Of a stretch of 64,000 bases of DNA, positions 37,005 to 42,880 are shown in pieces. Numbering within the stretch: the first letter of the stretch is position 1; each line of letters begins with the position of its first letter. Source of the DNA: Methanobacteriota archaeon. Lineage in GTDB: Archaea > Thermoplasmatota > Thermoplasmata > SG8-5 > JACRNV01. The notes beneath the pieces are model-generated. The model saw nothing but the letters and a program-made list of their open reading frames with translations, was not told the origin of the DNA and did no database searches. The stretch covers positions 1 to 64,000 of the forward strand of contig JACRNV010000014.1 of assembly GCA_016214785.1 (NCBI GenBank), read 5' to 3'. A program made the translations under genes and the position numbers.

Positions 37005-37044
37005 TGCCGTCAACTATCTCTTTTTGGTCAATGGAGAGATCATC

Positions 37045-40000
37045 ATGAAGGGGATTGGCTCGGTGATTCTCGTCGCCGCAATCGTGTGCTCGGGCATGCT
37101 CGCTGCCCTGCTGACTGTGTCCGACGGCGTCAGGGCGGACACGTACAAGGCCAACGTCCTCGTCAACGACATGACGTTCGGCAGCCAGTCGTGGCCCAAG
37201 TGTGCCATAGACTCCAGCGGCGCGATGCAGGTCGTGTGGGTGGACACGCGCGACACGAGCCCCTTCGGCCGGATACGCTACGCTTACAGTTCCAACAACG
37301 CGACGTCCTTCCTCACCCCTTCCATTCGGGTCGTGCCCGAAGCCCAAGTCACGGGGAGCCAGGCCAACCCGGACGTGGCAATCCAGAACGGGACCACCAT
37401 CGCGGTATGGCAGGAGAACGTCGGCGGTTACTGGGACGTTAAGGCGGCCGCGAGGAACGGCACTGCGAGCGCCTTTTCGCAGCCAATCACCGTCAATGCC
37501 TGGACGAACGATTCGCAGGAGATGCCATCGGTATCAAATGGTGGGGGCAGGACCGCAGTAGTCTGGAGGGACGGGCGCTCTGACAACCTCGTCCTCATCA
37601 CGAATGCGAACACAGGGGCGGTCGTCTGGTCCCTGGCGCACACAGCCACAGTGACGTCGGTGACCTTCTCGCCTACTGGCGATAGGGTTGCCGCTGCGGC
37701 CGAGGACGGCAGCGTCAGGATATGGAGCATGGCGACGGGCGCGCTCGTCCGCACCCTGAGGGACCACACGCAGCGCGCGACATCGGTATCTTGGTCCCCG
37801 GACGGCTCGAGGCTCGCCACGGCCGGCTGGGACTTCACGGTTAGAATATACGACGGCGCGACATACGCGCCGGCGAGCGTCCTGTCCAATTCCGAAAACC
37901 CCATCAATTCAATGTCGTGGTCGCCGGACGGGGCGCGCCTCGCGGTCGGCCACAACGGGGAGGGTGTGTACACAGGCTGGTCGACGCCGGGCTTCCCCGA
38001 ATACAGGTTCAATCTCACACTCTGGTATCTCAACGGAACCCTTTGGGAATGGGGCTTCGTGGGGACGCACAACGCGCCCATAAACGGCGTCGAGTTCTCT
38101 CCCGACGGCAAGTGGGTGGCCACCGGCGCTGGATTCCCCCCCGGGGAGGGGGCTTCGATGGACAACACGGTTGGCATCTGGAATTCGACGAGCGGTCTCT
38201 TGGCAAACATCGTTCCGCTCGGTTCCTGCGTCAATTCCATTTCATGGTGGTCTGACTCTGTGAATATGACCGCTGGACTGTTTAATGGCACAGCACCGCA
38301 GTTCGATGCCATGAACGACTTGGTCCACGCGTGGCTCGTCGGGCACGGGGGCAGCGTCAGGGCAGTGGACAAAAGCCCGGCCGGCGAAAGCGTTGCAACT
38401 GGCAGCATCGACACGACTGCGAAAGTGTGGAATGCAACGAGCGGCATCGCGACGCAAAACATCACCAGTCACGCCACAACAGTCCACACCGTCGCGTGGT
38501 CGCCCGACGGCGCGCTCGTGGCGTCCGGCTCGGGGAACTCCCTCCAGTACCGTAGGAACGAGTATCACATCTACTGCGCGGTCTCCTCGGATGCGGCCAA
38601 CACATTCCCGGTGCAGAAGCGCGTCACGAAGATCGGCTCGATGTTCACGGCTTCTCCAAGGGTATCTGTGTCGGGCAACGGCAAGATTGGTGTGGTATGG
38701 TACGATAACCACGAGGGCTTCTTCGATATATATTATTCCTCCTCCGTCGATGGCGGCCTGAGCTTCTCGGACGCGGTCTCCGCGGCCAACGGGGCGGTCT
38801 ACTCGGCGAGCATGCGCTACAACCCCGACGTCGCCTTGGATGACGGCGGCGTCGCCCACGTTGCATGGCACGACGGCCGGGGGAAGGTGGCGTTCGACGA
38901 GCGATATGATATATATTACTCGAACTCGACCAATTTCTCATCCACCCTCGCAGTCAGCCCGACGGCCAACTACATGAACCAGTCCGACCCGTCGATATCG
39001 GTCTCCCCGAACGGGGCGAACGTATATATCGCCTGGAGGGAGATAGGAATGCAGAGCGACATCAAGGTCGGCAAGTCCGTCAACAGCGGGGCGACGTGGC
39101 TCGCGCCAGACACCGTCAGCGACGTTGCAGGCGGCTCGAAGGAGCGCCCGTCGGCCGCCTTACTTGGCTCCGAGATGTACGTCTGCTGGCAGGACACGCG
39201 GCTCGGCAGCGCCGACATATTCGCCTCCACCAGCGCGGGACCGGACACGTGGCCGCCGTCCCTGACGAGCCACTACCCCTCCACGGGGGAGTCAGGAGTG
39301 TCCGTCTTCACATCGATCAACCTGTTGTTCTCGGAACCCGTCAACGCATCGACAGTCGGCCCCAGGTTCGCGCTGAGCGGAGGCGGTCAGGTCTGGAACG
39401 AGACGAACTGCGCCTTCGCATGGAGCGCGTACGGGGATTATGTTAGCATCACTCCGAACTCCTCCCTGAAATACAGCGAGGCGTACTCCGTCATCGTGAA
39501 GGCCGGGGTGAGCGATTTGTCGGGCAACCCGAGCGCGTCGGACGCGGCATGGGGGTTCACGACGGGTTCGGACGTGGATGCGCCGAGGCTCTCGCACAAC
39601 CAGCGCTACCTCCAGGTCTCGTACGACCAGACGCTGACGCTGACGGTGGAGGCCATCGAAACAACGGGGCTCTCCTACGTCAACGCCCACACAAAGGGCG
39701 TGGCCGATTCCACTTTCTCCGCCCACAATATGAGCTACCTCGCTGGCAATACCTGGACGTACACCGTGCCCGAGCAGGGCGCTTTAGGCACGATCCAGTA
39801 CTACTTCCAGTCCGCGGACGCGAACGGCTACACCTCGACCCTCCCTGAGAACCTCAGCGCCGTCGCGCCGTATTCCGTCGCTGTCATAGACCCGTACGTC
39901 CCGGTTATCTCGCACGCGCCGCTCGCGCAGGCGAGGATAATGTCCCCGATCCAGGTCAGGGGGAACATCAGCGACGGCATCGGCGTCCAGAGCGCCTTCC

Positions 40001-40752
40001 TGTACTACAAGGGGAGCCAGTCCCTGGGCTATTCGGCCATCGCGATGGATAGGGAGAGCGGCGACGCGAAGAACGGCTCATACCTGGCCACGATTCCACA
40101 GCAAACTGCAGTTGGAGTAATCAGGTACTACATTTGGGCCAACGACACATCGAACAACACGGCCCAGACCACGGCGGCGGACATCGCCGTGAGCGACAGC
40201 ACGCCGCCTACGTTCCTTGGGGAGCCTACCCTGCAAATCCTGGACGACGGCTCGATTGAGATAAGGGTCAACGTCACGGACGACAACGGCATGGCGCGCG
40301 TCATCCTGCACTTCCTCCCCGTCGGGGGCTCGGGCTACATCGAGAAGGAGATGACCGGCGTGGGCGGGACGGAATACAGCGCCCACATCCTCGCCCAGGT
40401 GCGCACCGGGGATTTCAGGTACTACATCGAGGCTTTTGACGTATCGGGCAACATGAACAGCACGAAGGGGATGAACGGCGGCGAGCCGTACACCGTCCAC
40501 ATGGAGGGCAGCACCCCCGCGCCCGAGTACATCATCCTCGCCGTCGCCATAGTCGTCATCATAGGCTCCCTCGTCGCGCTGGCCTTAATCATCAGGGCCC
40601 GGCGCAGGAAGGGAGGCAGTGCCCGCGAGGATGCCACGCCCCTGAAAGACAGCGCGGCCGACGGCCAGGCTGCATCGCGCCCGGGCGGCGGCGACGGCAC
40701 CGTATCTGAGGATCCATCGACAAACAGGGACATGCCTGGGAAGAAGGGTTAG
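37045..40752 (+). CDS. surface protein with WD40 propeller nested in a sialidase-like propeller
   Basis: 1235 aa. A signal peptide (GSVILVAAIVCSGMLAALL) leads to sialidase/BNR-like blades (VVWVDTRD, IAVWQENVGGYWDVK, AVVWRDGRSDN). A WD40 array of about 325 residues follows (VTSVTFSPTGDRVAAAAEDGSVRIW, VSWSPDGSRLATAGWDFTVRIY and more). The interrupted blade then resumes at EYHIYCAVSSDAANTF and further blades follow to about residue 725. Next come a Big_5-like Ig domain (STGESGVSVFTSINLLFSEPV), Ig-like domains, and a C-terminal TM with basic tail (ARRRKGG). ATG 37045 has GGAGAG upstream. Likely an adhesin or binding scaffold; ligand unknown. Confidence 0.75.
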   Translation: MKGIGSVILVAAIVCSGMLAALLTVSDGVRADTYKANVLVNDMTFGSQSWPKCAIDSSGAMQVVWVDTRDTSPFGRIRYAYSSNNATSFLTPSIRVVPEAQVTGSQANPDVAIQNGTTIAVWQENVGGYWDVKAAARNGTASAFSQPITVNAWTNDSQEMPSVSNGGGRTAVVWRDGRSDNLVLITNANTGAVVWSLAHTATVTSVTFSPTGDRVAAAAEDGSVRIWSMATGALVRTLRDHTQRATSVSWSPDGSRLATAGWDFTVRIYDGATYAPASVLSNSENPINSMSWSPDGARLAVGHNGEGVYTGWSTPGFPEYRFNLTLWYLNGTLWEWGFVGTHNAPINGVEFSPDGKWVATGAGFPPGEGASMDNTVGIWNSTSGLLANIVPLGSCVNSISWWSDSVNMTAGLFNGTAPQFDAMNDLVHAWLVGHGGSVRAVDKSPAGESVATGSIDTTAKVWNATSGIATQNITSHATTVHTVAWSPDGALVASGSGNSLQYRRNEYHIYCAVSSDAANTFPVQKRVTKIGSMFTASPRVSVSGNGKIGVVWYDNHEGFFDIYYSSSVDGGLSFSDAVSAANGAVYSASMRYNPDVALDDGGVAHVAWHDGRGKVAFDERYDIYYSNSTNFSSTLAVSPTANYMNQSDPSISVSPNGANVYIAWREIGMQSDIKVGKSVNSGATWLAPDTVSDVAGGSKERPSAALLGSEMYVCWQDTRLGSADIFASTSAGPDTWPPSLTSHYPSTGESGVSVFTSINLLFSEPVNASTVGPRFALSGGGQVWNETNCAFAWSAYGDYVSITPNSSLKYSEAYSVIVKAGVSDLSGNPSASDAAWGFTTGSDVDAPRLSHNQRYLQVSYDQTLTLTVEAIETTGLSYVNAHTKGVADSTFSAHNMSYLAGNTWTYTVPEQGALGTIQYYFQSADANGYTSTLPENLSAVAPYSVAVIDPYVPVISHAPLAQARIMSPIQVRGNISDGIGVQSAFLYYKGSQSLGYSAIAMDRESGDAKNGSYLATIPQQTAVGVIRYYIWANDTSNNTAQTTAADIAVSDSTPPTFLGEPTLQILDDGSIEIRVNVTDDNGMARVILHFLPVGGSGYIEKEMTGVGGTEYSAHILAQVRTGDFRYYIEAFDVSGNMNSTKGMNGGEPYTVHMEGSTPAPEYIILAVAIVVIIGSLVALALIIRARRRKGGSAREDATPLKDSAADGQAASRPGGGDGTVSEDPSTNRDMPGKKG

Positions 40753-40765
40753 CGGAGGTTGTCGC

Positions 40766-42880
40766 GTGCGCATAGTCGATCTCCCTCTCCCAGATAACTA
40801 CATCGACGCTCTCGTGAAGGCCGGCTATTCCGATTTCTACCCTCCGCAGGCGGAGGCCATGCCCGCCGTGCTCGCCGGGAAAAGCGTCGTGCTGGCGGCG
40901 CCGACCGCGAGCGGGAAGTCGCTCGTCGCCTACGTCGCCTGCATGCAGCACGTCCTCAAGGGCGGTAAGGCGTTCTACATCGTGCCGCTGAGGGCGCTCG
41001 CGAGCGAGAAGCAGGCCGACCTCCGGGGCTTCGAGGGTCTGGGGATCAAGGTCGCCTACGCCGCAGGCGATTTCGACGGCCCGGACCCCACGCTGGAGAG
41101 GTACGACATCATTGTGGCCACGTCCGAGAAGGCCGACTCGCTCATGCGCCACAAGAGCCACTGGCTGAACGAGATTACGCTTGTCGTGGCCGACGAGGTC
41201 CATCTCATCACCGACCCGGACCGCGGCCCGACGCTCGAGGTCACGCTGGCGAAGTTCAGGAAGATGAACGCCGGCGCGCAGATAATCGCCTTGTCGGCGA
41301 CAATTAAGAACTCCAAAGAGCTGGCCGATTGGCTCGGCGCAGAGCACGTCTACAGCGAGTGGCGCCCCGTGCCACTGAAGGAAGGGGTCTATCTCGACGG
41401 CACAATATCGTTCAGCGATTTCACTAGCCGCGAAGTCGTAGGAGGCGCCCGCGACCCGGTGGAGCGAATGGTGCTGGACGTCGTCGCCGAGGGCGGCCAG
41501 GCGCTGGTCTTCGTCAACACGCGCCGCTCGTCCGAGAGCCTGGCCGGGAAGATATCGGGCGCGCTCCTGAAAGTGCTCGGCGAGGGGGAAAAGGATGCGC
41601 TTTCGGCCTTGGCAAAGGAGCTGGCCGAGTGCCAGGACGAGCCCACGTCCTTCGGCGACAGGCTCGTGATATGCGCCAGGGGCGGCGCGGCCTTCCACAA
41701 TGCGGGGCTGACGAACGCGCAGAGGACGAGGGTCGAGAAGGCCTTCAAGGAACGGGTGCTGAAGTGCATTATCGCGACACCGACGCTGGCCGCTGGCATC
41801 AACCTCCCCGCGCGGCGCGTTATCGTCCGCGATGTCCACCGGTACGACGCGAACTTCGGCAACGTGCCGATACCCATCATGGAAATCAAGCAGATGTGCG
41901 GCAGGGCGGGCAGGCCGCGGTTCGACAAGTACGGAGAGGCCGTCCTGATAGCGAAATCGGACTCCGAGCGCGAGCGTTTGATGGAGCGCTACCTGCTCTC
42001 CGACGCCGAGCCGGTCGTCTCGAAGCTCGGTGCCGAGCCTGCGCTGCGCACGCACATCCTCGCCGCCATCGCGACGGGGCAGGTCGCCGACCGCAGGTCG
42101 CTGGACGATTTCATCTCCGGCACATTCTTCTCGCATCAGCAGGACAAATGGAAGATAGACGCGGACATAGAGAACGTCCTCGAGTTCCTCTGCCAGGAGG
42201 GGCTCGTGCAGGATCGCCAGGGCCTGAGGCCGACGCAGTTCGGCAAGCGGACTTCGGACCTCTACATAGACCCTCTCTCGGCGGTCACGCTGAAGAAGGC
42301 CGTCGAGGAGTACGGCAAACTCGAGGGCGTGAGCAATCTGGCGCTGCTGCACTCCGTCTGCGCCACGCCCGACATCCAGGCGCTCTACCTGCGCACTGGC
42401 GACGACTGGGTCGAGGAGGCCGTCGATGCCAACAAGGGGCCTTTCCTCATCGGGCGCGCCAATGATTTCTTCCTCGCCGAGGTGAAGACGGCGGCGCTCA
42501 TCCACGACTGGATGGACGAGCGCAGCGAGAACCACATAGTCAACAGGTTCGGCATCGGTCCCGGCGACATCAGGTCGAAGGTCGAGAGCGCCGAGTGGAT
42601 TGCGTACTCCTTCGCGGAGCTTGCTAGGCTCTTCGGGAACGCCGAGCTGACTGAGCGGCTGCGGGTTCTCGTACTGCGCATCCAGAACGGCGTGAAGGAG
42701 GAGCTGGCGCCGCTGGTAAGGCTGCGCGGCATCGGGCGGATAAGGGCGCGCCTCCTGTTTCAGGCCGGGTACAAGAGCGCGACGGACATCGCGCAGGCCG
42801 ACGAGAAGAAACTGAGCGCGCTGCCGGGCATCGGGCCGAGGATAGCTGCGAGCATAAAGGGGCAGGCGGGACGTATATGA
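40766..42880 (+). CDS. hel308: Hel308 DNA helicase
   Basis: 704 aa Ski2-like superfamily 2 helicase acting at stalled forks, unwinding lagging strands 3' to 5'. Motifs: Q-region YPPQAEAM, Walker A APTASGKSL, motif II VADEVHLI, motif III LSATIKN, motif IV-V VNTRRSSESLAG and TPTLAAGINLPARRV, motif VI QMCGRAGRPR. Then a winged helix, ratchet and C-terminal helix-hairpin-helix (LRGIGRIRARLLFQ and LPGIGPRIAASI). Length is typical. The start is GTG 40766, with GGAGGTTG a few bases upstream. It starts 13 bp after the surface protein gene. Confidence 0.95.
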   Translation: MRIVDLPLPDNYIDALVKAGYSDFYPPQAEAMPAVLAGKSVVLAAPTASGKSLVAYVACMQHVLKGGKAFYIVPLRALASEKQADLRGFEGLGIKVAYAAGDFDGPDPTLERYDIIVATSEKADSLMRHKSHWLNEITLVVADEVHLITDPDRGPTLEVTLAKFRKMNAGAQIIALSATIKNSKELADWLGAEHVYSEWRPVPLKEGVYLDGTISFSDFTSREVVGGARDPVERMVLDVVAEGGQALVFVNTRRSSESLAGKISGALLKVLGEGEKDALSALAKELAECQDEPTSFGDRLVICARGGAAFHNAGLTNAQRTRVEKAFKERVLKCIIATPTLAAGINLPARRVIVRDVHRYDANFGNVPIPIMEIKQMCGRAGRPRFDKYGEAVLIAKSDSERERLMERYLLSDAEPVVSKLGAEPALRTHILAAIATGQVADRRSLDDFISGTFFSHQQDKWKIDADIENVLEFLCQEGLVQDRQGLRPTQFGKRTSDLYIDPLSAVTLKKAVEEYGKLEGVSNLALLHSVCATPDIQALYLRTGDDWVEEAVDANKGPFLIGRANDFFLAEVKTAALIHDWMDERSENHIVNRFGIGPGDIRSKVESAEWIAYSFAELARLFGNAELTERLRVLVLRIQNGVKEELAPLVRLRGIGRIRARLLFQAGYKSATDIAQADEKKLSALPGIGPRIAASIKGQAGRI

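Follow-up and report, generated by a model that had tools for sequence, protein, structure and literature searches.

Whether a complete beta-propeller can be lodged within a single blade of a second propeller of another repeat family is the question raised by one gene in a 64,000-nucleotide stretch of archaeal contig JACRNV010000014.1 (hereafter the window). Its frame, on the forward strand as are all window features given below, is open without internal stop from an ATG at 37,045 to a stop at 40,752 (37,045–40,752), and it encodes 1235 amino acids. A TTG at 37,024 is a possible upstream alternative to that ATG; the starts of orthologues coincide with the start of the frame. The order within the product is signal peptide, Asp-box propeller with a nested WD40 propeller, Big_5, Ig-like domains, transmembrane (TM) helix and short cytoplasmic tail. 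The explanation offered here, taken as a whole very probable, is of an exported seven-bladed Asp-box propeller raised on an Ig-like stalk, with a complete WD40 propeller nested in its blade 3, that would be a surface receptor or adhesin. It starts from sequence anatomy, conservation, synteny and orthologues with an empty site, all of which can be read directly.

Once the insert is removed the outer blades number seven, with the motifs VVWVDTR, IAVWQEN, AVVWRDGR//EYHIYCA, VVWYDN, VAWHDGR, IAWREIG and VCWQDTR, the double stroke marking the interruption. Blades 1 and 2 occupy 37,144–37,476 (VVWVDTR...IRYAYSSNNATSF and IAVWQEN...VKAAARNGTASAF), blade 1 having an Asp-box-like SSNNATSF. Strands a and b of blade 3 follow at 37,477–37,578 (PSVSNGGGRTAVVWRDGR) and terminate at the insertion point, and strands c and d of the same blade, with the Asp-box SSDAANTF, lie at 38,557–38,607. 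Blades 4 to 7, at 38,608–39,237, have Asp-boxes in 4 and 6 and align blade by blade with those of orthologues that lack the insert. The Asp-box consensus, S-x-D-x-G-x-[ST]-[FWY] at the turn between strands c and d, was scanned for with a relaxed pattern; the window protein has four degenerate copies (outer blades 1, 3, 4 and 6) and orthologues up to five, and within the WD40 insert of the window protein and orthologues the same scan found none. No BNR model of Pfam passes its cut-off on the window protein's own outer blades, and their assignment is based on orthologues, Asp-boxes and alignment. BNR_2 does pass (cut-off 31.4) in two orthologues: L017 with its outer flanks joined (38.3 bits), where one stretch of the match spans the join, and the insert-less L166 (34.7 bits). 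Comparison of the outer propeller with solved structures gave no significant match. Beyond the propellers come a Big_5 Ig-like domain at 39,244–39,564 (PF13205, 68.7 bits against a cut-off of 23.6) and about three further Ig-like stalk repeats at 39,565–40,497, where the repeat pattern was recognized by inspection, the Big_7 match is weak and orthologues align.

Outer blade 3 breaks after '...GRTAVVWRDGR' (residue 177, nucleotide 37,578) and resumes with 'NEYHIYCAVSSDAANTF' (residue 504, nucleotide 38,557). Between the two lies a seven-bladed WD40 propeller of 326 amino acids (residues 178–503, 37,579–38,556) that is matched by PF00400 and many WD40-propeller models and recurs at this site in 11 further proteins. 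A first-pass annotation of the DNA had placed a split blade signature at about 37,584 and 38,558, within 5 bases of these limits, and had described a complete WD40 array of about 325 residues, as is indeed found. Its view that a BNR/sialidase-like blade is split also holds, except that the cut does not fall inside the Asp-box: it precedes it, between strands b and c. PF00400 matches the insert five times (43.6 bits at best with a cut-off of 27; 132–141 bits summed), four passing the cut-off singly and one together with its neighbors. The array is made of six whole blades and one that is itself split, the half-blades being residues 178–196 and 474–503. Strands c and d of the split WD40 blade open the insert (37,579–37,635, SDNLVLITNANTGAVVWSL), and its strands a and b (HTVAWSPDGALVASGSGN) close it together with a short linker (38,467–38,556, SHATTVHTVAWSPDGALVASGSGNSLQYRR). 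Rejoined, the two halves score in Pfam as one WD40 repeat, at 24.5 bits in the window protein, just below the cut-off of 27, and at 37.3, 39.7 and 27.8 bits in three orthologues. Because they do so, and with strands assigned by motif, both rings are read as opened at the equivalent turn, the one between the second and third strand.

A fusion of two genes through faulty assembly or binning would be the most trivial source of such a sequence, and the genome is a draft of 67 contigs; yet 11 proteins of other genomes are fused at the identical residues, with the same frame and neighbor gene, and this conservation rules out a chimera, to which next to no probability was assigned in any case. The full-length relative L009 (JAUSPR010000208.1, Thermoplasmata, from a public archaeal assembly) is 30% identical across an alignment of 1184 columns and has the insert in the identical place. 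Nested copies, full or partial, were found in 10 genomes besides that of the window, in three families in all (13 genomes of the window's order), and a further copy is present in G012 (L027/L091), which belongs to a fourth family of the same class, outside the window's order. Among 390 genomes sampled across the phylum, a full nested match is present in only G000, G011 and G012. Both junctions are preserved in 12 proteins, that of the window included. The arrangement is not due to chance, since it is kept at about 30% identity in the 11 other proteins with the outer blades resuming in register. Viral contigs had plain WD40 proteins only, none nested, and the outer-propeller query had no match there.

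The gene directly 3′ of the nested copies, where enough flanking sequence is available, encodes a Hel308-like helicase (40,766–42,880 in the window), a synteny marker that in several families adjoins nested and insert-less versions alike. It served as an anchor in 150 genomes, and the slot upstream of it was read in about 35. In families f16, f19 and f27 that slot holds a protein of about 1050–1130 amino acids with an Asp-box propeller, Ig-like domains and a TM segment, and without WD40; the f27 protein was recognized by reading its sequence, as that family lay beyond the reach of sequence searching with the window protein. These are the homologues with an outer propeller and no insert for which the first-pass annotation had advised looking. 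The insert-less positional orthologues are L131, L132, L133, L140, L161, L162, L166 and L194, and also L130, from whose contig the helicase is absent. In the other sampled families the slot upstream of the helicase has no similar protein. For the joined outer ring an end-anchored global alignment took the place of local ones, which can slip by one blade because the blades resemble each other. In the global alignment the seven outer blades of nested and insert-less proteins match one to one, and blade 3 of the latter is uninterrupted, as in VVWANQ--EETIRLARSIDGGQSF of L161 and AAWADD--YLDIRASASSDGGQTF of L130. With relatives at the same locus having the outer ring without the insert, and on the strength of sequence comparison throughout, the nested arrangement is judged to be real, old and conserved.

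The insert-less orthologues carry an unrelated domain of about 325 amino acids between outer blades 6 and 7. It reads NYFFD...DDGNGRLDHGRLNGTDSPDEIV... in L161, L162, L166, L130 and L133, and it has no match in Pfam. By strand geometry it would also emerge on the face of the ring formed by the loops between second and third strands.

Two other ways of arranging the same blades were weighed. The blades at the junctions might be mixed, outer strands a and b pairing with WD40 strands c and d and WD40 a and b with outer c and d, in a continuous ring of about 14 blades or some hybrid. The chain is smooth across both junctions, for instance VAVAWEEYRSDNTIRLW in L009, but the split halves re-pair by type, and the orthologues that lack the insert at this locus have the seven outer blades as a unit, which so closes without WD40. 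We know of no precedent for a single ring of 14 blades. The Asp-box literature does predict hybrid propellers for sequences of mixed motifs, and its large example has 10 blades (PMC2716378). The hybrid is considered quite improbable. Less probable still, and by now hard to credit, is a plain tandem in which a three-blade and a four-blade piece flank the WD40 propeller and do not form one propeller. The linear order is indeed three blades, WD40 and four blades, but the cut falls inside blade 3, with strands a and b on one side and c and d on the other, neither set of blades alone would be able to close, and the orthologues have seven blades without WD40. The nesting of one propeller within another, as first proposed for this gene, is supported by the seven plus seven blades, by rejoined halves that score as a repeat, by junctions held in 12 proteins and by insert-less orthologues beside the helicase. 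The two arrangements that the annotation had set against it, one continuous ring or a plain tandem, give way to the finding that the flanking three and four blades are an uninterrupted seven-blade unit in homologues.

A tree built from the shared parts puts every nested protein on one side of a single branch (support 83/83), which is compatible with one insertion or one loss. Support for a single insertion goes no higher than this, and family f14 is on a long branch; in the helicase tree the window's order is recovered (98/98), as is f16 with f19 (98/97), and f14 is unplaced.

An AlphaFold model had been suggested as a check, and its outcome was divided. Two runs were made with an alignment of two sequences, the window protein and L009. 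Model 1, of the window protein, has a mean pLDDT of 59.9 and a pTM of 0.51, with the WD40 part mostly at 70–88 and acceptably folded, and the outer region at about 50–60; model 2, of L009, has 55.5 and 0.50. With Foldseek the WD40 part of model 1 resembles complete propellers (5nnz, TM score 0.79 by target length; 5yzv, about 0.7). Because the outer ring was not resolved in these two-sequence models, the nested fold is a strong inference from sequence and is not read off a model.

The most plausible history has a complete seven-bladed WD40 propeller entering outer blade 3 at its b–c turn (loop 2-3), in what was probably a single, ancient event. The insert would itself have been opened at its own equivalent b–c turn, so that its two ends would meet to complete the WD40 ring, with the outer ring closing around the insertion point. 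Closure in three dimensions, location on the top face and a binding function are what we infer beyond the direct readings. In Asp-box propellers the face with loops 1-2 and 3-4 (the bottom) is well defined, and the loop 2-3 face is highly variable and is the functional one in known structures (Quistgaard and Thirup, PMC2716378). With WD40 in loop 2-3, it is therefore expected on the variable, functional top face. There the outer ring may bind a glycan or protein, and the WD40 ring, held by two strands, may add a second binding ring to give a two-ring clamp or cleft.

The protein is probably an exported type I membrane protein, to judge from the N-terminal signal and C-terminal TM segment, both seen by inspection, and from a count of glycosylation sequons. 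A putative signal peptide or hydrophobic segment (MKGIGSVILVAAIVCSGMLAALLTVSDGVRA, 37,045–37,143) has its hydrophobic counterpart in orthologues, and a TM helix with a cytoplasmic tail of about 55 amino acids (YIILAVAIVVIIGSLVALALIIRARRRKGG..., 40,516–40,749) is likewise matched in orthologues by a TM segment and then a charged tail. N-glycosylation sequons number 25 in the ectodomain, seven of them in the insert, and zero in the tail, a distribution that supports an extracellular position, short of proof. A nested protein could instead be an enzyme (a glycosidase such as sialidase) in which WD40 assists binding, in the manner of the lectin insert of Vibrio cholerae sialidase. Asp-box propellers are mostly glycosidases and an inserted domain is known in one of them (type 2, PMC2716378), but none of the full orthologues examined shows an R-I/L/V-P motif within its first 800 residues, and no glycosidase family passes its Pfam cut-off. 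A single 'RLP' in the fragment L025 sits beyond the propellers. The term 'sialidase-like' applied earlier consequently describes the repeat family well and the catalytic signature not at all, and enzymatic activity is regarded as unlikely. The likeliest role remains binding at the cell surface, with the two rings forming a putative clamp; the label of surface receptor or adhesin, much less certain than the topology, is held only tentatively, a shade short of an even chance.

In DDB1 the propeller BPB lies in the chain between parts of other propellers. DDB1 has three seven-bladed propellers, BPA, BPB and BPC, in one chain, with two packed as a clamp (PMC10665379). It is eukaryotic, intracellular and WD40-like throughout, whereas the protein described here is archaeal and probably exported and combines two repeat families. 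The solved sequences nearest to its WD40 part (phmmer) are 2ymu, the designed WRAP proteins and 5yzv. To our knowledge no prokaryotic WD40 protein such as PkwA is nested in a host propeller. The insert resembles these prokaryotic proteins (PkwA, 5yzv; PMC5587647) in its regular canonical repeats. The survey in question gives a total of 63 WD40 proteins for archaea; the words 'insert', 'sialidase' and 'Thermoplasm' do not occur in its main text (PMC5587647).

A close formal parallel is the type 2 Asp-box propeller, a propeller interrupted by an inserted domain, as in V. cholerae sialidase (PMC2716378). Shared with it are an Asp-box propeller, here probably also at the cell exterior, and a blade series interrupted by a foreign domain, between or within blades, for which the empty-site orthologues and the in-register resumption of blades are the evidence here. 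Unlike the lectin-like insert of the catalytic V. cholerae enzyme, the insert here is a complete propeller of another family within one blade, and the protein has no catalytic signature. An Asp-box propeller with an inserted domain is thus already known; an insert that is a propeller of another family is absent from the four types described (PMC2716378). No WD40-in-sialidase case was found in the mostly open-access literature searched for nested or inserted propellers. Nearer home, the f16, f19 and f27 orthologues share the Asp-box propeller, Ig-like stalk, TM segment and helicase neighbor, and differ in having no WD40 and the domain of about 325 amino acids instead.

The first-pass annotation had also called WD40 repeats outside an archaeal cell rare, and here it is contradicted: the other WD40 proteins read in the window's order carry signal or membrane segments and look exported or membrane-bound, and several other Thermoplasmatota families have such proteins, so that extracellular WD40 repeats are ordinary in this group. 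Related genomes encode exported or membrane-anchored plain WD40 proteins, such as L075:1902-3485 (WD40, Ig and TM) and L085:1188-3182 (TM, WD40 and several TMs). Three candidates for nesting picked by WD40 score, L138, L139 and L098, were rejected as plain WD40 with other repeats. Those in family f49 (L138:1229-4687 and L139:756-4277, both on the minus strand) are exported tandem proteins of about 1150–1170 amino acids in which WD40 precedes a TM segment and numerous repeats of the calcium type (D-x-D-G-D); in L098:4985-10003 it is followed by a long repeat-rich ectodomain and a TM segment.

The only other WD40-bearing gene found in a contig search of the window's genome (L008:106-9456, minus strand, contig C64) encodes an exported subtilase-like protein of 3116 amino acids (PF00082, 69 bits). 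Its WD40 array interrupts a beta-sandwich-like stretch, with DPAGYYIDTDAAH before it and KPDMVIYIDF after it; the stretch in turn sits between the protease Asp motif and the remaining protease domain. The catalytic motifs appear to have degenerated (QGSMAAAI, GSVVSAAV). The family recurs across the order and in several families of the class. In the copy of G058 (L079:3199-11829, residues about 497–1087) a Kelch array (614–912) lies within the WD40, making Kelch in WD40 in sandwich in protease.

Together with the WD40 nested in an Asp-box propeller, these two cases suggest that such archaea may assemble surface proteins by fitting entire propellers into the turns of other beta domains. Propellers opened at the b–c turn would then serve archaeal surfaces generally as portable insertion cassettes, an idea that at present seems somewhat more likely wrong than right. 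At the locus described here both states are kept beside a fixed neighbor gene, which allows a direct comparison of before and after. A natural design rule is suggested, in which each ring is opened at the same turn and the two are cross-connected. In Thermoplasmatota, several exported families put WD40 domains to use outside the cell.
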